Part shown: positions 1,224 to 52,015 of the stretch, piece by piece
Layout of the letters: the number at the start of each line of letters is the position of its first letter
Numbering within the stretch: the stretch's first letter is position 1
Origin: Candidatus Poribacteria bacterium
GTDB lineage: Bacteria > Poribacteria > WGA-4E > UBA9662
Length of the DNA stretch: 52,015 bases
Direction of reading: 5' to 3'
Assembly (NCBI GenBank): GCA_002709695.1
Contig: PAQF01000010.1
Coordinates: 1 to 52,015, forward strand
Program-made: the position numbers and the translations under genes
Notes under the pieces: generated by a model
The model's database searches: none
Seen by the model: only the letters and a program-made list of their open reading frames with translations
Told to the model about the DNA's origin: nothing

Positions 1224-2065
1224 TGATTTAGTAAGGTGATATTAGTAGGGATCATTTATTATTTGATTGATAATAGGAGTGGACGGAGTCGAGAATATAT
1301 CTGTTTTTATTGGCAAGTAAGCAGGTCTGTTACGTTGTGAGAAGGATGTTCTGCTAGTGGGAACAGTTGAGATGTGAAATGCAACCGGATATAGGCATAG
1401 GCTATGCTAAGTTAGTACGATGGGACTTATTTTGTCTGTGCTTTGAGCTGGTTTCCCATGAATGTCTCACTGCCTTTTAGAATTAGCTAATGTCAAGTAT
1501 AGCTTAGAGGTACATTATGTATTTCTTTTGCTAGTGTTACGTTAGCGTATCCGCCTTAGATACATGGCAGTCAAGTATTTGACTACTCTTGGAAGTTGAA
1601 AAACCGGTCGGTGGTCAGGAGTTCATGTCGATCAATTTAGCTGGTTGTCGGCTAAGAGAATGAGGTGTGAAAATTTTTCTTGTTGAATCAGATTTATGAT
1701 TCCCATTTACCTTTAAGTATTTAGTTGGTAAGCTTGGCGCAAAATTTCCTTCTTCGCTCCTTTTTTTTGAGAGTTGTGGATTTGGGCGATACATTTTCCT
1801 TGTTTTTTTGGAAGATATCTTTATTAAGCAAGAGTGTTTAGGTTTCCTCAATGGAGAGATCGTTAGTATGTTTTTTGTTATCATAGGTTGTGGTGTTGGT
1901 ATAAAACCTGCTTAGCTTTTGCTGGCAGTTGTGAAGCAGACTGTATCGACAGAAACTTGAGTTTGAATATCGAGTTTACAGATTAAATTGATATGGTAAA
2001 ATGTTTTTGGTGTAATAATTTATTTTTTGAAAGGACGTGCAAATAATAGTTATGAGGGTAGGCCA
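1224..2065. other. Intergenic stretch, no gene recognised
   Basis: About 840 bases separate the dehydrogenase from the first PhyH gene. Short open frames exist on both strands, including an 89-codon one on the minus strand (1615-1884), but none reads like a known protein or has a convincing ribosome site. No tRNA, clear terminator or repeat was seen. Decayed coding sequence is possible, since other gaps here hold remnants. Confidence 0.4.
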
Positions 2066-2887
2066 ATGTTGAATGTGGATCAGATACGAGATTTTCAGCG
2101 GAATGGTTTTTTGCTTGGTGATCGAATCTTGGATGATAATCAGGTAGAAGAACTTCGTGAGGAATTAGACCGTGTTATTGCTGAAGGGCCGGAGGAACCG
2201 GATCTTAGTCGGTCAAGAGCAACACGCATTGCCAATTTGGGCGGTAACCCAGATACACCGGTTTGGCAAATTGTCAATATGTGGCAAGCTAGCGAAGCTT
2301 TCCGTGCCTTAACTTTCCATCCTGTAATTGTCGAGGAAGTTGCACAATTACTGGATGCTGAGGAACTTCGTGTTTGGCATGATCAAGTTCAGTATAAGCC
2401 ATCGGGTATTGGTGGTATAACTGGTTGGCATCAGGATTCCCCCGCGTGGCCTAATATTGCGCCGAAAACGACACAAATTTCGTCGTGGGTTGCGTTAGAT
2501 GATGTGGATGAATCAAATGGTTGTATGAGTATGATTCAAGGATCACATAAATGGGGTGTTTGCGGACATTTCTTGCACCAGATGAGGTCTCAGATGCAGT
2601 CTTTTCAAGACGTTCCTGAATCGTTCGAAAGTCAAGAACTACATGTTGTTTTACGACCTGTTAAGAAAGGTTATGTTCATTATCATCATGCTTTGACGGT
2701 GCATGGTTCCCACCATAACAACAGTGGTCGTAAACGTCGGGCAATTGCTAATCATTATATGACGGAAAATACGGTCTACGATGAAACAGGTGGTCACTTG
2801 ATGAAGCCTTTTGTTACTGTAGCACATGGTGAGAAACTTGTTGGAGATGTTTTTCCTCTAGTTTGGCAGAAAGATGATGAGGTGTAA
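2066..2887 (+). CDS. Phytanoyl-CoA dioxygenase (PhyH) family protein, copy A
   Basis: A non-haem Fe(II)/2-oxoglutarate oxygenase of the PhyH family, which hydroxylates small organic substrates. It opens with the typical DQIRDFQRNGFLLGDRIL. The iron-binding facial triad is visible as His-x-Asp in GWHQDSPAWPN and a distal His in ALTVHGSHHNNSGRKRR, whose following Arg is the usual 2-oxoglutarate anchor. The ATG at 2066 is preferred over an in-frame TTG at 2027 because GAGGG (2054-2058) sits about 7 bases upstream and the protein then begins exactly where relatives do. It ends 3 bp before the next PhyH gene, so the two are probably co-transcribed. Substrate unknown; many bacterial PhyH proteins are annotated only by fold. 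Confidence 0.9.
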   Translation: MLNVDQIRDFQRNGFLLGDRILDDNQVEELREELDRVIAEGPEEPDLSRSRATRIANLGGNPDTPVWQIVNMWQASEAFRALTFHPVIVEEVAQLLDAEELRVWHDQVQYKPSGIGGITGWHQDSPAWPNIAPKTTQISSWVALDDVDESNGCMSMIQGSHKWGVCGHFLHQMRSQMQSFQDVPESFESQELHVVLRPVKKGYVHYHHALTVHGSHHNNSGRKRRAIANHYMTENTVYDETGGHLMKPFVTVAHGEKLVGDVFPLVWQKDDEV

Positions 2888-2890
2888 AGA

Positions 2891-3646
2891 TTGACAAACG
2901 AGGAAAAATTCATAGTTGATTTGGAAGGATACTTGGTAATTAAAAACGTCTTGGAAGAAGACGAAATTATGGAAATGAATCAGGTTATTGATAATGGTGA
3001 CAGAAGTGGTCCACCGAGCCGTTGGGGGAAACTTTTTAACAGATTGATAGATCATCCCAAAATTCTGCCCTATTTGATTGAGTTAATTGGTCCAAGTGTT
3101 CGATTGGATCATGACTATGCTATTTTAATGCAAAATGGTAGTTCGGGTGGAGGTCTTCATGGTGGGGAGGATGGTGGTAGACCCGGGGGAAATGAGGGAG
3201 ACCATTGGTACAAGTGCCGAGATGGGGTGATTCGCAATGGATTGTGTGTGATGGCCTATAATCTGGCTCCAGCAAAGTCTGGTGATGGTGGTTTTGCCTG
3301 TATTCCTGGAAGCCACAAAAGCCATTTCCTGCGTAATTTGTCTGATGATGTCCGCCATTTTAAGCGCCAAGTTCATTATGTCGTTCAGCCGGAAGTTGGA
3401 GTTGGAGACGTTGTGTTCTTTACTGAGGCTCTAGTACATGGTACGATGCCGTGGACATCCGCAGTAGAGCGACGTTCTTTACTCTATAAATACAGTCCGG
3501 GACACTCTGCTTGGTCTGGTAATTATTATAATCTTGATGATTACGAAGAATTATCGCCAAGACAAAAACTAATGTTATCTCCGCCTTCTATTCACATGTC
3601 ACTGTCAAGGGAGAGGAACTGGTACCTGAATGGAGATCAGGAATAA
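2891..3646 (+). CDS. PhyH family protein, copy B, with atypical HGG motif
   Basis: A 251-residue PhyH-fold protein beginning at TTG, with GAGGTG about 6 bases upstream in the end of copy A. The N-terminal FIVDLEGYLVIKNVLEEDEI and the distal LVHGTMPW with a following RRSLLYKY (His and Arg) fit the family. Where copies A, C and D have His-x-Asp, this protein has LHGGEDGG, that is His-Gly-Gly, so the carboxylate ligand is missing or supplied from a shifted position. A Gly-rich loop with GGRPGGNEGDHWYKC follows. In known Fe/2OG halogenases the Asp is replaced by Ala or Gly, opening a halide site; whether that applies here is inference. It may instead mark a PhyH subfamily with a different ligand arrangement. 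It is the second gene of a four-gene PhyH run. Confidence 0.85.
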   Translation: MTNEEKFIVDLEGYLVIKNVLEEDEIMEMNQVIDNGDRSGPPSRWGKLFNRLIDHPKILPYLIELIGPSVRLDHDYAILMQNGSSGGGLHGGEDGGRPGGNEGDHWYKCRDGVIRNGLCVMAYNLAPAKSGDGGFACIPGSHKSHFLRNLSDDVRHFKRQVHYVVQPEVGVGDVVFFTEALVHGTMPWTSAVERRSLLYKYSPGHSAWSGNYYNLDDYEELSPRQKLMLSPPSIHMSLSRERNWYLNGDQE

Positions 3647-3704
3647 TATATCTAGTAGAGAGTCTTCCGTGGAGTTTCGTCTATTGATGGGATTTGAGTA
3701 GGAA

Positions 3705-4553
3705 ATGAAAGCAGAAGATTATCAGTTTTTTCAGCACAATGGGTATCTTTCTTTAGGGAAAATTTTAACTGATGAAGAGTTAGAGTTTTACTTGCGCCTT
3801 TATGATCAAGATCGTGATAGAAAAGGGAGATTTTGGTTTGATTATGGACACCATCATCAGACTGCGAATTATGATGTACTTGTTAGTACTCCTGAGTTTG
3901 ATGGTTTGATCCGTCATCCTAATGTTATGGAACCTATATCCAATTTGATGGGAGGTGACATTTGTTTTTCGGAGATTGGTATAAGACACATGGCAGCTTA
4001 TACTGGTGAACCAAGACATTGTGTTTGGCATCGAGATAGTGATGTTCGTGGAGAGAGACATCTGATGGAACACCCACTTTGGATAAGGAATGTGCAACTG
4101 ATGGTGTATTTGTCTGATGTGAACGAAACCAGCCATTGTTTTTCGATTTCTCCTGAATCAGTTGGTCAGCCAGTCTTAGAAAAAGAAGCTCAGTTGGAAC
4201 GCGGAGGTGTTCATAATCTATATGGCCAAGCTGGAACAGCTATCTTGTGTAATTTTTCCGTTTTACATTCGGCCACTGTACGTGTGACAAAAAGCGAACG
4301 AAAGACTGCTCAGGTTTATTATGGGCATAGAAATCGGCCGCATATGGCCAATGATTCTCTAATACCTGTTGGGTTTTGGCGAGATCACCCAGATGAAGAA
4401 GTCCGTGCGTTCTATGGGGTTCTAAACGATAAAACTCGCAAATATCTGGAGCTTGGGGGGACTGAGCCGCACTCATTAGACAAATCCGCAGAGATCTTAT
4501 ATGAAATTGATTATAAAAATCGACCCGAACGGTCACTGACACAAAATGCTTAG
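3705..4553 (+). CDS. PhyH family protein, copy C
   Basis: A 282-residue PhyH-family Fe(II)/2-oxoglutarate oxygenase starting at ATG with a GTAGGA ribosome site just upstream. The N terminus, YQFFQHNGYLSLGKILTDEE, matches the family opening. Metal ligands are His-x-Asp in CVWHRDSDVRGERH and the distal His in FSVLHSATVRV, with an Arg about 10 residues later (KSERKTAQVYYGH) as the likely 2-oxoglutarate contact. It is clearly diverged from copies A, B and D, so this is not a recent tandem duplication; different substrates or steps are more likely. Gaps of 58 and 74 bp flank it, consistent with one operon or several closely spaced units. Confidence 0.88.
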   Translation: MKAEDYQFFQHNGYLSLGKILTDEELEFYLRLYDQDRDRKGRFWFDYGHHHQTANYDVLVSTPEFDGLIRHPNVMEPISNLMGGDICFSEIGIRHMAAYTGEPRHCVWHRDSDVRGERHLMEHPLWIRNVQLMVYLSDVNETSHCFSISPESVGQPVLEKEAQLERGGVHNLYGQAGTAILCNFSVLHSATVRVTKSERKTAQVYYGHRNRPHMANDSLIPVGFWRDHPDEEVRAFYGVLNDKTRKYLELGGTEPHSLDKSAEILYEIDYKNRPERSLTQNA

Positions 4554-4627
4554 GGCAGAAATTACCTTTCTAAGCATGAATTGAACTGGTAGTGAAATTA
4601 TCAATGAATTAACAAAGAGGTTGTGAT

Positions 4628-5506
4628 ATGGTATTGACGATTGAAGAAATTGACGCCTATAATGCGCAAGGTTTTGTCTTGGTTAAGGATGTCTTGAATC
4701 CTAGTGATACAAAACCTGTAATTGATGAATTGGAAGCTTTTATTGATGGTCAAGCTCGTGAATTATATGATCAAGGGAAAATTACTGATTTATGTAGTGA
4801 TGCACCTTTTGATGTGCGGTATGGTTTATTACTTAAGCAATGTGCGGAAATTGGTAAAGGTATGGACATTATGCATATGCGTTCACCTGCCATGTTTACA
4901 TTTTTAGGTAATCCTAATTTTCTAGATGCAGTTGAATCGTTGGTAGGGCCTGAAATTACCTGTAATCCAATACAGCACATTCGTGCTAAACCTCCATCAG
5001 ATTATGGTAGTAGTAGCTGGTCACATGGGGTTCCTTGGCACCAAGATGCCGCTGTAATGATGAAGGAAGCGGAGAACTCAAATGTTATTACTTGCTGGTT
5101 GCCACTTAGCAAGAGCACAATTCAGCGAGGTTGCCTACAGGTTTTACCTGAGGTTTCCAAAATGGGCTATTTACGGCACCAGAAAGAAGGAGGTACTATG
5201 ATTGTGCCTGACTTAATGCCTGAGATTGACCCGGTCTTTTTGGAATGTGATCGTGGTGATGTTGTGTTTATTAGCCGATTTACACCACACTGTTCTGTAC
5301 CGAACAAGTCTGACTACTGTCGTTGGTCGCTTGACTTGCGTTATCAACCGACAGGCCAACATACAGGACGAACATCAAATCCTGATTTTGTTGTTCGTAG
5401 TCAAAGTAACCCGGACAGTGTATTAACCGATTACGCTGAGTGGTGCCATCTTTGGGTTGATGCATTTGAAAATCCAAGAGGTCATTCTGTTCATCGAACG
5501 GATTGA
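4628..5506 (+). CDS. PhyH family protein, copy D
   Basis: A 292-residue PhyH-family oxygenase starting at ATG behind AGAGG. The opening IEEIDAYNAQGFVLVKDVLN is typical. The iron site shows His-x-Asp in VPWHQDAAVMMKEAEN and the distal His in SRFTPHCSVPN, followed by an Arg in RWSLDLRYQPTGQ that probably binds 2-oxoglutarate. The residues TCWLPLSKSTIQRGCLQVLP form the strand and turn that commonly follow the HxD motif. Last of four successive PhyH genes. Function inferred from family only. Confidence 0.9.
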   Translation: MVLTIEEIDAYNAQGFVLVKDVLNPSDTKPVIDELEAFIDGQARELYDQGKITDLCSDAPFDVRYGLLLKQCAEIGKGMDIMHMRSPAMFTFLGNPNFLDAVESLVGPEITCNPIQHIRAKPPSDYGSSSWSHGVPWHQDAAVMMKEAENSNVITCWLPLSKSTIQRGCLQVLPEVSKMGYLRHQKEGGTMIVPDLMPEIDPVFLECDRGDVVFISRFTPHCSVPNKSDYCRWSLDLRYQPTGQHTGRTSNPDFVVRSQSNPDSVLTDYAEWCHLWVDAFENPRGHSVHRTD

Positions 5507-8323: not shown

Positions 8324-8435
8324 CGCATTTAATATATTTATTTCACCTGCCACAATAGCTGGATTTATATCTTAAGTATGTGTTAGGCTAACTTGGATTA
8401 TCTTAAAGATTATGTCTAATTGAGGTGTGTATATT

Positions 8436-9161
8436 TTGTTTCAAAAACTATCTTGTTGTTATCTCTTTATTTTTTTTACGAGCTTGATTGTTAGTAGCAT
8501 GGCTGTTGCGGAGCTTGTCGCTAGTTATGATTTTGAAGACAACTTCAAAGATACTTCTGGGAATGATCTTCATGGCAAAGAACATAATGGAGCATCTATT
8601 GTTAAGGATGCTGATAGAGAAAGCCAAGTTTTGCTTCTAGATGGAAAGAATGATTATGTGAATATTGGAAATGATAAGCGCTTTGATTGGGGTGGTGCTT
8701 TCTCGGCTTGTTTCTGGATGAAAGTAAACCTATGGCAGGTTAATTGGGAGACAGTTCTTAAGAAAGACAACGTTTTCAGCTTTGAGAGGGATATTGGTAG
8801 GGAAGCGCTCGCTTTTTACCATTGGCCAGGTTTTGTTCCAACAACGATGGACATCGATGACCAATGGCATCATATTGCTGCCACATATGACAAAAAAGCG
8901 CAGAAGTTTTATAAAGACGGCGAGTTGATTGCTAATAAGCCAAACGCGGCTGATATGAACATAAATCCCAAGCCCATCATTATTGGTGCTGCCGATGGGA
9001 CAACTCGTTACTTCAATGGTCGCATGGATGACGTTCGCATATATAGTAAAGCTTTATCAGAAGATGAAGTCAAAAAGAGTATGACTGCGCTAGAACGCCA
9101 AGCTACTGATCCAAGACATAAATTGACAATCGTTTGGGGAAGGATAAAAGTTTTGAGATAG
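8436..9161 (+). CDS. Secreted LamG-domain protein with C-terminal W-G-x-I-K motif
   Basis: The protein has a signal peptide (hydrophobic YLFIFFTSLIVSSMAVA) and one LamG/concanavalin A-like jelly-roll domain: LVASYDFEDNFKDTSGNDLH at the start, then FSACFWMKVN, WHHIAATYDKKAQKFYKDGE and MDDVRIYSKALSEDEVKK. The DDVRIYSKALS segment is a classic end of such domains. Start: TTG at 8436 sits 10 bases after GAGG; a GTG at 8427 is in frame but almost touches that site. The last residues, KLTIVWGRIKVLR, match the C termini of four other secreted proteins in this window. LamG domains bind carbohydrate or protein ligands; here a surface or exported binding role is inferred. Confidence 0.85.
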   Translation: MFQKLSCCYLFIFFTSLIVSSMAVAELVASYDFEDNFKDTSGNDLHGKEHNGASIVKDADRESQVLLLDGKNDYVNIGNDKRFDWGGAFSACFWMKVNLWQVNWETVLKKDNVFSFERDIGREALAFYHWPGFVPTTMDIDDQWHHIAATYDKKAQKFYKDGELIANKPNAADMNINPKPIIIGAADGTTRYFNGRMDDVRIYSKALSEDEVKKSMTALERQATDPRHKLTIVWGRIKVLR

Positions 9162-9593
9162 GTTTCTTACAAGCAAAGTGTGTTGGGCTTTAAGGAAATT
9201 AATTTTTAAATAGAAAGCAAAAAAATCTGCAGCATTAGTTTCTTCAGAAGTTACAAGGTTTTCATGTAATCAAGGTGCAAACCATATTATCGCTTTTATG
9301 TGTAACTGATAATTGAATGTTTTTGTCAATTTGCAAAGGAGGGATAATTTTAGGTTCGGTTTGTCTCCAATGCCACGGATATTTCGTGATAATGATTTTT
9401 GGCTTGTTTTAGCTTTATTTTTGGAAGGGGTGAGGTCAAGAGTTAAGAAATAAACATTGTGCTAGCGAACACAATAGATATCCAATCAGTAATTTGAACA
9501 CTGGTGTCAGGTTTGGGGATAGCCTAGTTTTTGGAATCATTGTCTACTAGTTACAAAGTTATACATTGATACTTATAATTGATTGGTGGATGA
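9162..9593. other. Intergenic region between convergent LamG genes
   Basis: About 430 AT-rich bases between two convergent genes. No open frame with family resemblance, no convincing stem followed by a T-run, and no tRNA was found. Confidence 0.4.
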
Positions 9594-10355
9594 TTATCTT
9601 GTTGCTTCACGCTTCAGACTCCCCCAAGTTGTAGTTAACTTATCAGTAGGAGCTATAGCGAGAAAAGGCTCTACACCGTCTTCATAAATAGTTTTTGCTT
9701 CTTCTTCCGTCAACGCGCGATTAAAAATTGATAGCTCGTCTAGAACCCCAGCACCTTTGTTTCCTTTTCCATCATCACCCACTAGCACGTTAATATCATT
9801 TCCAATTGCTGTTGGTAAAGGGTTTGTGGCCTTGTCCAGCTTACCATTGATATAAAAAGAAACGGTTTTTACCCCATCATGTGTTACTGTCAGGTGAATC
9901 CAATTCCCATCCAACGGGATTTTTGTAACCGCGTGGGTTTGGCCACTCGGCTTGTTTTCATAATCCCATATACCATCTTTTCCGACCCAGGTGTGAAAAT
10001 TATCGTTCTCTCCAATTGTTTTGGAGATAAATGGTGACCAATTAGCTCCTTGCTTATCCCATTTTAGCCAATAACTAATTGTGTGGCCTTTTCCTTTAAG
10101 TGCATTCAGGTTTTTATTGTGTTGGATTTCGATGGCACCAGTTCCATCATAATTTATCGCTTTTCCTAATTTCCCGTCCACCCATTTTGGTTTCCCCAGG
10201 TATTTGCCATGGTTTTTGGCTAGGGATCCGTCTTTTGCATTGTTACCTTGTCCTTCATCAAGGGAAAGGTACAGGACTAAAGATTCGTCAATAGCCTGAA
10301 CAAAACTACAGAAAGCTAAGAACAAACCTAGTAAACTAAATACCAAGATTTTCAC
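9594..10355 (-). CDS. Secreted LamG-domain protein with C-terminal W-G-x-L-K motif
   Basis: A 253-residue exported protein. The start is GTG with AGGAG about 10 bases upstream; it yields the signal peptide MKILVFSLLGLFLAFCSFVQA. One LamG domain follows: LVLYLSLDEGQGNNAKDGS, HTISYWLKWDKQG, WIHLTVTHDGVKTVSFYING and LDELSIFNRALTEEEAKTIY. The C terminus is KLTTTWGSLKREATR, the clearest copy of the shared tag. Sequence similarity to the neighbouring LamG gene is limited to the fold motifs and the tag, so the tag is conserved beyond the domain itself. Role: probably an exported carbohydrate- or protein-binding protein. Confidence 0.88.
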   Translation of the reverse strand: MKILVFSLLGLFLAFCSFVQAIDESLVLYLSLDEGQGNNAKDGSLAKNHGKYLGKPKWVDGKLGKAINYDGTGAIEIQHNKNLNALKGKGHTISYWLKWDKQGANWSPFISKTIGENDNFHTWVGKDGIWDYENKPSGQTHAVTKIPLDGNWIHLTVTHDGVKTVSFYINGKLDKATNPLPTAIGNDINVLVGDDGKGNKGAGVLDELSIFNRALTEEEAKTIYEDGVEPFLAIAPTDKLTTTWGSLKREATR

Positions 10356-10771
10356 TGAATGGCTTCTCCTAATTTATTATTTAATGATTAGTTAGGGTTA
10401 TACTCTAGTCGAATGTCAGGGCAAAGCACACTACCCTAATATAGCAATGGCAGAGGGAGGGAATAGCGAAAACTCGAAACTCCGTTTCTCAGTAATGAGA
10501 GCATAACGGCAAGCTCGCAATATTAGTGCTTAAACTGGAGTGCCTAACTGACTTGTTCCACATCCTACGTTTCTGTTCCTTCATTTATGCAAAGGTATTG
10601 GATTAATTTCTATTGTCTTGTATGTTATTCAAAGGTTTTGATAAACGCAAGAAATGCAAGAGGGTTGAATTCGATGTTAAGCATGTAAAAGTGAGAAGTT
10701 TCTGCAAATCGATTTTGGAAACTAACCATATGAAGACATATGAAAAACTGTCAGCATGTGGTCATATTAGG
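10356..10771. other. Intergenic region, nothing recognised
   Basis: About 415 bases between two minus-strand secreted-protein genes. A plus-strand frame starting near 10613 runs into the next gene antisense and has no protein-like features. A short catatg/catatg inverted pair near 10728 is the only symmetric element seen. Confidence 0.35.
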
Positions 10772-11353
10772 TTACCTTTGAATTTTCAAATTTGCCCAAG
10801 TTGTTGTCAACAAACCAGCGGGATTGACAGGTGCGGTATCGATTTCAGGATCAAAGAATATTTCAATTTCCCACAGACTAGGTTCATCAGAAGCTCCGAT
10901 GGTCTTAGTTACGTGGTACTGGAGGATAGTCGTCTGAATTGTATCGAAAGTCAAAATATGATCTGGAACTACGACCGGCTTTTTTTGATTGCCGGGATGA
11001 TTGGCAGAAGCGTCTGCAGTTTCTGGTTTTAGGATTAATCCCTTAACTTCTTTTAAAGATTTGTCGTATTCAATAGTGTGACCGCGGAGACGAGATCGAA
11101 ATTCAGTGACGTGTACCCGGTTGATCTTCTGTTTTTTGTTCCAGGTAAACTTAATCCATGTATCAACGTCATCATTTTTGGCATTCCATCGCGTATCGAA
11201 ATTTTCATCGTTAATGTGAATAACAGGATGATCCTGACCATCTGTGTCTAATTTCGCTAGAGGGGCAATATTTTTCAGATCTTTGTGTCCCTGGCTATAA
11301 GTTGGAGTAATCAAAAAAGCAAATAGAATAAATGAAAGGACTAGTTTTTTCAC
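10772..11353 (-). CDS. Secreted discoidin (F5/8 type C)-like protein with C-terminal W-A-x-L-K motif
   Basis: An exported protein of about 193 residues. The GTG at 11353 is preferred because GAGG lies 8 bases upstream and the product then starts with a clean signal peptide (MKKLVLSFILFAFLITPTYS); a TTG at 11371 would add six residues. The body resembles a discoidin-type beta-sandwich: ENFDTRWNAKNDDVDTWIKF, INRVHVTEFRSRLRGHTIEY and a closing SLWEIEIFFDPEI. Such domains bind glycans or phospholipids. It ends LLTTTWANLKIQR, the same tag as in the neighbouring LamG proteins although the fold is different, which argues the tag has its own role. Confidence 0.75.
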   Translation of the reverse strand: MKKLVLSFILFAFLITPTYSQGHKDLKNIAPLAKLDTDGQDHPVIHINDENFDTRWNAKNDDVDTWIKFTWNKKQKINRVHVTEFRSRLRGHTIEYDKSLKEVKGLILKPETADASANHPGNQKKPVVVPDHILTFDTIQTTILQYHVTKTIGASDEPSLWEIEIFFDPEIDTAPVNPAGLLTTTWANLKIQR

Positions 11354-11756
11354 TATAAATTCCTCACTCAATTTGGGTTATGACTTCACTTAGAAAATTC
11401 AACAATATTTACTACATCTGAACAGGCAAAAGATGTTACAATCGCTCTGAAGAATATATCATGTCTGCTCAAAAAGCTCAACCAGTTTTTCAGTAACTTC
11501 TAGGCTGACTAGCAGTATTGTCCATATTGTTTTCTGTTTTTTAATAATGGCTTATTGGAAGCTGCACATTTTTCTATAAACAGAGTTGGGGGCGTATGAA
11601 TATCATTGCTAAGTTGGTCAGCAATCCCATTTTAGGATATACTGCAAGATAAAGATGCGTGTGATGATTCTATTGTCTTAGTATCTTTTAAACTTCTGGG
11701 TTTTATCTATTGTTAGTTTCAGAGAATAAAATTAGCATAAATTGCAGGAGAGAGTT
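11354..11756. other. Intergenic region, nothing recognised
   Basis: About 400 bases between the divergent discoidin-like gene and the ThuA remnant. Short frames such as one near 11380-11512 on the plus strand have no clear relatives. The string gattctattgtct (about 11666) repeats the left arm of the palindrome at 37-65 but without its partner arm. Confidence 0.3.
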
Positions 11757-50384: not shown

Positions 50385-51188
50385 TTATTCTTTCTTTAAC
50401 TTCCCCCAGTATACAGGAAGACTTGATGATTGAAAATTCACGGCTTGGGGGCGATCGAAATTTGCACTGAGTTCCTCAGCTGTTCTGGCTATAGAACTGA
50501 CCCTGACTTCATCAATGAAACCTTTCCAATTAAATTCACGGCTGGCTTTGGTTCCAACCATAACATCCCAAGGTGAGCCGGTTGACAATTTACCTTTGTG
50601 TGGGGCCGAACCTTCCAATTTACCATTAATATAAATTTTGATTTTGGCGCCATCGTATGTACCTGCAACGTGATACCATTCTTTGACTCCCATCTTCAAT
50701 GCAGATGCTGCATTCGCTGTTCCTTTGTCAGTATTAACATGCATGTTTGGAACGCCGTTAGTAACACCCAGATGATACTTCCCAACCGCCCCTGCCCAAT
50801 GACAGCAAATTAGCTTCCAGCTAGTCATATCGGTTGGATAGACCCAAGCTTCAACGGTGATTGCGTCGTCAGGGGTCAGCAGTTTATTGGCACGTTTATC
50901 TTTTACAGAGCCAATAACAATGGCAGTAGTACCATCGAATTCAACAGATTTTCCGCCACCTTCTTTATTCCAGTCATCTGGACCCCACGCGGCTTTCCCT
51001 TCAATTTCGCCTTTTAGATTGTTCTTGGATTCATCTTTGACCGTGTTACCTGAACCCTCGTTAAAATGCCAAAGGCCAATCGTGTGTTCATCCGGCCGAT
51101 ACTCAAATCCTGTGGCTGCATCGGTTACATGGTAAAGTCCACTAATTACCATAATTGTGGCTAAACAAATTACGAACTTAAATTGCAT
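50385..51188 (-). CDS. Secreted LamG-domain protein with C-terminal W-G-x-L-K motif
   Basis: About 267 residues from ATG 51188, which has AAAGGA about 8 bases upstream and gives a signal peptide (MQFKFVICLATIMVISGLYH). A LamG domain follows: HTIGLWHFNEGSGNTVKDES, ITVEAWVYPTDMTSWKLICC, WYHVAGTYDGAKIKIYINGK and FIDEVRVSSIARTAEELSAN. The C terminus SLPVYWGKLKKE is a variant of the tag in the 8-11 kb cluster. It is a close paralogue of the next gene, sharing GVPNMHVNTDKGT and a near-identical SPWDVMVGTKASREF. A tandem duplication is the simplest origin. Confidence 0.9.
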   Translation of the reverse strand: MQFKFVICLATIMVISGLYHVTDAATGFEYRPDEHTIGLWHFNEGSGNTVKDESKNNLKGEIEGKAAWGPDDWNKEGGGKSVEFDGTTAIVIGSVKDKRANKLLTPDDAITVEAWVYPTDMTSWKLICCHWAGAVGKYHLGVTNGVPNMHVNTDKGTANAASALKMGVKEWYHVAGTYDGAKIKIYINGKLEGSAPHKGKLSTGSPWDVMVGTKASREFNWKGFIDEVRVSSIARTAEELSANFDRPQAVNFQSSSLPVYWGKLKKE

Positions 51189-51223
51189 GATGAGTTCCTT
51201 TGCTTTTTGTACCTGTTTGGTTT

Positions 51224-52015
51224 TTATCGTTTCTTCATATTTGCCCAAAATACAGGAAATTTGGTCGAATCGAGATCTACAGGGGTTGGTCCTGAAGACA
51301 AATTCGGACTGAGTTCCTCAGTTTTTCTAGCTACAGAACTAAACCTAACTTCATCCATCAAACCGACCCAATGAAATTCACGGCTGGCTTTGGTTCCGAT
51401 CATCACATCCCAGGGACTACCTGTGGTAAGTTTACCACTATGTGCCACAGCTTCTGACAATTTGCCATCGACATAGATCTTGATCTCTTTACCATCGTAT
51501 GAGCCAGCAAGATGGTACCATTTGTTGACGTCTATTTTTGGCGCTTTGGCGTTCTTTGTTCCTTTGTCGGTATTAACGTGCATGTTCGGAACACCATTGC
51601 TAACGCCAAAATGGTACTTCCCAACAGCCCCTGCCCAATGAGCACCAACCAATTTCCAAGCTGTCAAGTCGGTTGGGTAAACCCAGGCTTCGATCGTAAT
51701 AGCTTGGTCAGGAGTTAAGATTTTATTCCCAACTGTATCCTTAATCGGAATGGCTAAGGCAGTTTTCCCATCGAATGCTAAAGAATGTCCCCCCCCGGCT
51801 TTATTCCAACTAGCCTTATCCCACTTAGCTTTCCCTTCAATTACTGTTTTGATTTTATTCTTGGATGCATCTTTAACTGCATTGCCCGAACCTTCGTTAA
51901 AATGCCAAAGACCAAGTGTGTGTTCGTCTGACTGATATTCGAATCCAGTGGCGGCAAAGCTGAGAATTGAACCCATAAAAACAAATATTCCGAAAATACA
52001 TATGCTTAATCTACT
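51224..52015 (-). CDS. Secreted LamG-domain protein, N terminus cut by window edge
   Basis: The frame is open to the window edge. Upstream of an internal ATG (51976) it reads SRLSICIFGIFVFMGSILSF, a hydrophobic signal peptide whose start lies beyond 52015. The LamG domain shows HTLGLWHFNEGSGNAVKDAS, ITIEAWVYPTDLTAWKLVGA, WYHLAGSYDGKEIKIYVDGK and LMDEVRFSSVARKTEELSPN. It ends KFPVFWANMKKR, again the W-[GA]-x-[LIM]-K tag. The adjacent LamG gene is its paralogue. A G8 run on the coding strand (51796-51789) encodes part of AGGGHS, where the paralogue uses mixed glycine codons. Confidence 0.9.
   Translation of the reverse strand, partial: SRLSICIFGIFVFMGSILSFAATGFEYQSDEHTLGLWHFNEGSGNAVKDASKNKIKTVIEGKAKWDKASWNKAGGGHSLAFDGKTALAIPIKDTVGNKILTPDQAITIEAWVYPTDLTAWKLVGAHWAGAVGKYHFGVSNGVPNMHVNTDKGTKNAKAPKIDVNKWYHLAGSYDGKEIKIYVDGKLSEAVAHSGKLTTGSPWDVMIGTKASREFHWVGLMDEVRFSSVARKTEELSPNLSSGPTPVDLDSTKFPVFWANMKKR

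Follow-up and report, generated by a model that had tools for sequence, protein, structure and literature searches.

Several described systems place one C-terminal signal on many otherwise unrelated exported proteins. The type A CTD of the type IX secretion system (T9SS; TIGR04183) serves as the C-terminal signal of Sec-exported proteins with many different folds, and the LPXTG, PEP-CTERM, GlyGly-CTERM and MYXO-CTERM types likewise give many unrelated exported proteins a single short tail across a whole lineage, MYXO-CTERM being phylum-wide (PMC11980579). T9SS signals can themselves be short: for HBP35, the final 22 residues can be enough (PMC11285876, PMC11969387), and the short CTDs of Prevotella intermedia have 43-55 residues arranged as a three-stranded sheet, with a GxY motif D and a conserved glycine in motif B (PMC11969387). 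In Poribacteria, Kamke et al. (2014) reported T9SS-like tails and the absence of the structural genes (PMC3909097), and a 2024 paper confines the T9SS to FCB phyla (PMC11285876).

Three neighbouring ORFs of a poribacterial genome end in a common tail, the ‘WG-K tag’ (Table 1), and its presence on all three is beyond chance. They lie in a window of 52,015 nucleotides, the whole stretch of DNA that was analysed, which starts at base 1 of its contig in a genome of 5.2 Mb in 87 contigs; Poribacteria are a bacterial phylum, mostly sponge symbionts. The ORFs and their C termini are as an earlier note on this DNA described them. The first two are LamG (Laminin_G_3) proteins, the third is discoidin-like by a weak F5_F8_type_C_2 match (E 1.2e-4, under the Pfam curated cut-off), and all three have the signal-peptide-like N termini that the note had reported. 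Its placing of the shared tail in the last 13-15 residues holds only in part: the tail is real but longer, running from about -11 to +4 around the tryptophan. At the far end of the window (50388-52015, minus strand) lies a tandem pair of further tagged LamG proteins, with the tag variants SSSLPVYWGKLK and STKFPVFWANMK. Close to the tagged genes, at 2027-5506 on the plus strand, are two ORFs of 286 and 292 aa belonging to one BLAST family, which also occurs in several other stretches of the same genome; the second of them (292 aa) is PhyH by Pfam.

Table 1. Coordinates of the tagged ORFs and tags of the window, and of two genes for SprA/Sov-like proteins
Feature	Position	Strand	Details
Small secreted LamG (Laminin_G_3) protein, tagged	8427..9161	+	244 aa; C terminus ...KLTIVWGRIKVLR; Pfam E 3.9e-28
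C-terminal WG-K tag ATDPRHKLTIVWGRIKVLR of ORF 8427-9161	9102..9158	+	ORF translation, pattern search
Small secreted LamG protein, tagged	9594..10355	-	253 aa; C terminus ...KLTTTWGSLKREATR; Pfam E 5.9e-20
C-terminal WG-K tag AIAPTDKLTTTWGSLKREATR of ORF 9594-10355	9597..9659	-	Outside LamG fold, modelled helix 240-252
Small secreted discoidin-like (F5/8 type C) protein, tagged	10772..11371	-	Up to 199 aa; C terminus ...LLTTTWANLKIQR
C-terminal WG-K tag PVNPAGLLTTTWANLKIQR of ORF 10772-11371	10775..10831	-	ORF translation, pattern search
Secreted LamG protein, tagged	50388..51188	-	267 aa; tag ...SSSLPVYWGKLKKE at 50388-50441
LamG protein running to contig end, tagged	51227..52015	-	Tag ...STKFPVFWANMKKR at 51227-51280
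SprA/Sov-like translocon	G000:C86:77089-83586	+	Spans L074/L075
SprA/Sov-like translocon, further copy	L078:9730-16341		

Used as a DNA pattern, [LF][TA]xxW[GA]x[hydrophobic]K matches 49 sites in the source genome and its reversed control 4; the longer V-x4-K-[LF]-[TAS]-x-x-W-[GA]-x-[hydrophobic]-K matches 45 and its control 0. Tag carriers in this genome number about 50-60 by DNA pattern, with 0-4 matches for the reversed-pattern controls; the true count is higher, since relaxed forms such as GNSTTIWGAIK and GMLTTTWGQIK, met on further ORFs in LamG searches, escape the patterns. The motif lies at the C terminus in 40/43 matching ORFs of the first 30 own-genome loci (neighbours common to several loci being entered each time) and in 25/26 and 41/41 matches at loci elsewhere in Poribacteria. 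Among the Poribacteria-wide scan matches listed, all 87 of the 87 strict matches are C-terminal rather than internal, with the stop at most 8 residues after the tag. These four samples overlap partly.

The tail can be summarised as A-V-[ED]-P-x-G-K-L-[AT]-T-T-W-[GA]-x-[LI]-K-x(1-4)-stop. The logo of 260 distinct tagged proteins reads, in per cent, A55 V97 [E55/D24] [P56/A28] x G67 K94 L96 in its N-terminal half and [A50/T37] T78 T74 W100 [G58/A39] x [L48/I39/V10] K100 in its C-terminal half, values that are somewhat inflated because many loci were fetched by DNA patterns fixing some positions. The register is fixed, with V at -10 (97%), K at -5 (94%), L at -4 (96%), W (100%) and K at +4 (100%). 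The regular expression behind the logo fixed the W and a K or R at +4 and set residue classes at -5 (K/R/Q/S/N), -4 (hydrophobic), -3, +1 and +3, leaving free the V at -10, the E/D, P and G positions and the T-T before the W. After the last K most of the 260 tags continue for 1-4 residues, among which R and K are frequent, and the NCBIfam CTERM models have no match on tagged proteins, both in line with the claim that the tail lacks the hydrophobic helix of the LPXTG and PEP-CTERM types.

Third codon positions in the tag, except those that the genetic code constrains, are nearly without information (at most 0.31 bit, at valine), and there is no conservation in the 30 bases sampled downstream of the stop; selection therefore acts on the protein and not on the DNA. 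A DNA-level element at gene 3' ends, such as a recombination site or terminator translated by accident, would share the fixed position at gene ends, but it was rejected on both measures, its probability being negligible.

The carriers are predominantly export-like proteins. In a sample of 310 ORFs from own-genome stretches picked around tags, export-like N termini, called by a home-made heuristic with a simple hydrophobicity rule, are found on 39 of the 41 tagged and 70 of the 269 untagged ORFs (Fisher p = 5e-18). The tag is thus enriched among signal-peptide proteins and does not occur equally in cytoplasmic ones; the two tagged ORFs lacking an export signal are truncated or at a contig end. 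A similar hydrophobicity rule gives a signal-peptide-like N terminus to 246 of the 260 distinct tagged proteins (~95%), and the 14 that fail it appear for the most part to have misassigned start codons or to be truncated. One tagged DUF362 protein (L037:1495-2595, minus strand) begins with a twin-arginine-like sequence; were it a genuine Tat substrate, recognition of the tag would follow both folding and passage through the inner membrane.

Tagged proteins are small (median 265 aa, 5-95% range 221-312 aa, maximum 432 aa). At 30 fetched LamG loci, all 26 ORFs of up to 310 aa carry the tag, or a relaxed version of it, at their end (two of these loci display one identical ORF), and none of the four LamG ORFs of 441-685 aa does so. 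Once the last 22 residues are removed, the 260 proteins fall into 37 mutually unrelated BLAST clusters (sizes 162, 19, 9, 6, 5, 5, 5 and downwards), the largest of which is LamG. The folds represented are LamG, DUF1080, CBM9, CBM4_9, F5/8C, GH43_C2, Kelch propeller, DUF4960 and some unknown.

In the AlphaFold2 model of the protein from ORF 9594-10355 (mean pLDDT 84), no part of the LamG fold extends past residue 226, and the tag forms a separate C-terminal helix at 240-252, with pLDDT in the 80s; in the model of an unrelated alpha/beta cargo it is disordered beyond the domain (pLDDT ~32). Given these positions, after the LamG fold or in disorder, and its presence on 37 clusters that are unrelated outside the tail, the tag is not the last strand of a domain. 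A PDB sequence search found no meaningful relative of the tag peptide. The fold search returned just generic ConA-like/LamG jelly rolls; toxin receptor-binding domains of the same fold are among them but say nothing about toxicity. With 162 of the 260 tagged proteins in a single LamG cluster, the tail could be imagined as a structural cap that has hitch-hiked by descent, spread by duplication and domain shuffling and having no partner. However, the 36 other clusters are dissimilar outside the tail and yet keep V, K, L, W and K at 94-100%, and the tail lies outside the fold or is disordered relative to it; this explanation is very improbable.

By pattern matching, the tag is found throughout Poribacteria and nowhere else in the samples searched, which outside the phylum are the matches listed from a scan of the GTDB species collection and 90 genomes of other phyla. 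The longer pattern is present in 85/85 Poribacteria genomes, at 12-140 strict copies per genome, whilst the reversed control over the same genomes gives zero except for one single match. The DNA pattern found no real case in the 90 other-phylum genomes; its one match, internal to a coiled-coil protein (genome G167), was rejected. In the strict-pattern GTDB scan (~85,000 species), 78 of the 80 loci listed are titled Poribacteria, and no tag was seen in other T9SS-bearing phyla among the matches listed. Two loci, JAPPIL010000222.1 and JACNGQ010000400.1, are in MAGs labelled Pseudomonadota and Planctomycetota and have poribacterial-looking tagged genes. These MAGs have just 2 tags each, on small contigs, and the loci were discounted as true carriers, being probably bin contamination.

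The tail is, on sequence evidence, an export-linked, fold-independent, short C-terminal peptide under protein-level selection, and from these properties together we infer a common envelope receptor. The earlier note had proposed a sorting, anchoring or assembly signal. This proposal is supported, the motif being neither internal or cytoplasmic nor the last strand of a domain, and the tail is rather likely to be a phylum-specific C-terminal sorting (or docking) signal. The N-terminal signal, normally of the Sec type and in the one DUF362 case Tat-like, would bring a tagged protein across the inner membrane; folding in the periplasm would leave the tag accessible on a linker. The K-L-x3-W-[GA]-x-[LI]-K stretch could be bound there by one common envelope receptor, which would carry the protein to or across the outer membrane and there hold or release it.

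Within the sorting-signal reading, the leading candidate for the system that reads the tag is, tentatively, a divergent poribacterial type IX system. A SprA/Sov-like protein of ~2,200 aa, one per genome examined, is present in 84/85 Poribacteria genomes, including 56/56 of high quality. One copy matches TIGR04189 at E 7e-40; most are under the equivalog cut-off, and one genome, from another order of the class, is over it (508 bits summed). Each genome has 15-21 PorV-family proteins, some of which exceed the cut-off in 13/13 genomes, and each genome examined has two giant PorU-like proteins (E 1e-75 to 1e-86, under the equivalog cut-off); in one complete genome a PorU-like gene lies just upstream of a PorV-family gene. 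TIGR04183 tails occur beside the tag in 13/13 genomes, at 34-82 per genome. The GldM profile search gave no match in Poribacteria and none in the control genomes either. By these profile matches, Poribacteria have the SprA translocon, PorV-family shuttle and CTD-bearing proteins of a T9SS, and their SprA-, PorV- and PorU-like proteins run contrary to the 2014 report of absent structural genes.

In such a system, one PorV-family shuttle might recognise the tag as a minimal counterpart of the usual T9SS CTD, which larger proteins of the same genomes carry. Flavobacterium johnsoniae is known to use specialised PorV/PorP-type shuttles for different classes of signal (PMC12618676), and it is because of this specialisation, together with the many poribacterial PorV-family proteins, that T9SS shuttles are ranked as the leading candidate. 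The link to the tag is indirect: near tag genes, 875 kb contain 3 PorV-family genes where their overall density predicts ~2.9, which is no enrichment, and the tag is not in itself a CTD. Across the 13 genomes, tag counts tend to fall as T9SS-CTD counts rise (Spearman -0.55, p 0.05; per Mb -0.62, p 0.03), but no weight is placed on this since the statistics ignore the kinship of the genomes.

The number of ordinary T9SS tails in each genome also means that the T9SS already has a signal, so that the tag may serve something else. One possibility, a sub-case of the sorting-signal reading that shares part of its probability, is a T9SS-independent route through the outer membrane, either type II secretion or an undescribed system of this phylum, equipped with a receptor or protease of its own. 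Such a route is somewhat unlikely. A secretin over the cut-off, one per genome, in both of the two genomes tested would be consistent with it, as would a T9SS already served by its own CTDs and the restriction of the tag to a single phylum, which a private system would be expected to show. The secretin may, however, belong to type IV pili, and no recurring tag-linked gene was found; to our knowledge, moreover, the known T2SS substrates lack a conserved linear C-terminal signal, which counts against the type II route. No dedicated tag-processing enzyme was found. Tag gene neighbourhoods were searched for a partner, and the recurring neighbours there (the PhyH family, Gfo/Idh-like and sulfatase-like genes, and a conserved cytidylyltransferase-PyrG locus) were rejected as tag partners, since they look generally expanded or syntenic. 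A private envelope-sorting system, with a ~20-residue motif that has neither membrane helix nor folded domain and is read by a dedicated receptor after export, could operate beside the CTD-based T9SS and serve a large surface repertoire of small proteins; this is credible, if short of probable.

In cellulosomes, dockerins plug modules into a scaffold. The tag might similarly be a docking or assembly peptide, by which small binding modules, once exported, are plugged into a shared scaffold or surface layer. Most of the cargo consists of single small putative carbohydrate- or ligand-binding domains with many paralogues per genome, and the fixed register and hydrophobic L-W-[LI] pattern would suit a docking peptide. 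But the cargo also takes in Kelch propeller, DUF4960 and DUF362 proteins, and no scaffold with repeated receptor domains was met, albeit without a systematic search. Docking is thus unlikely, and the mix-and-match display of lectin-like modules that it would give is equally so. Sorting to the outer membrane or surface is ranked first, with a private receptor or scaffold docking fitting nearly as well.

For the uncultured Poribacteria, which are abundant sponge symbionts, the tag provides a sequence-readable list of probable surface or secreted proteins. Together with the SprA, PorV and PorU relatives, it makes the 2014 question of poribacterial CTD export (PMC3909097) directly testable.

No published description of the tag was found in the open-access literature, and the claim that it belongs to no named family agrees with searches of Pfam and NCBIfam, in which no model covering it was found. 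The tag shares with C-terminal sorting signals in general its terminal position, its exported carriers of unrelated folds and its rarity elsewhere. Against the T9SS, the earlier note was right to call it far shorter: at ~20 residues, with an invariant W and without GxY, it differs from the T9SS CTD, a longer beta domain with GxY and Gly motifs, and CTD models (TIGR04183, TIGR04131) match 0/51 tagged proteins at NCBIfam E <= 0.01, Pfam likewise. Nor does it resemble the short form of the type A CTD, since its W and K are invariant, it has no GxY, and helix or disorder is modelled. The carriers also differ in size, with a median of 265 aa for tagged proteins against 886 aa for the T9SS CTD ORFs sampled. 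CTERM tails have a transmembrane helix, whereas the poribacterial tag has none and ends in its short R/K-rich stretch of 1-4 residues, which leaves an intramembrane sortase or rhomboid nothing obvious to act on. Dockerins resemble the tag as short terminal elements on modular binding proteins, but they are calcium-binding repeats of ~60-70 residues, and encapsulin and microcompartment peptides, again unlike the tag, act on cytosolic proteins. The tail thus looks like an undescribed ‘address label’ for proteins placed at or beyond the outer membrane: a C-terminal signal much shorter than the CTDs of the T9SS and without the membrane helix of the sortase-type tails.
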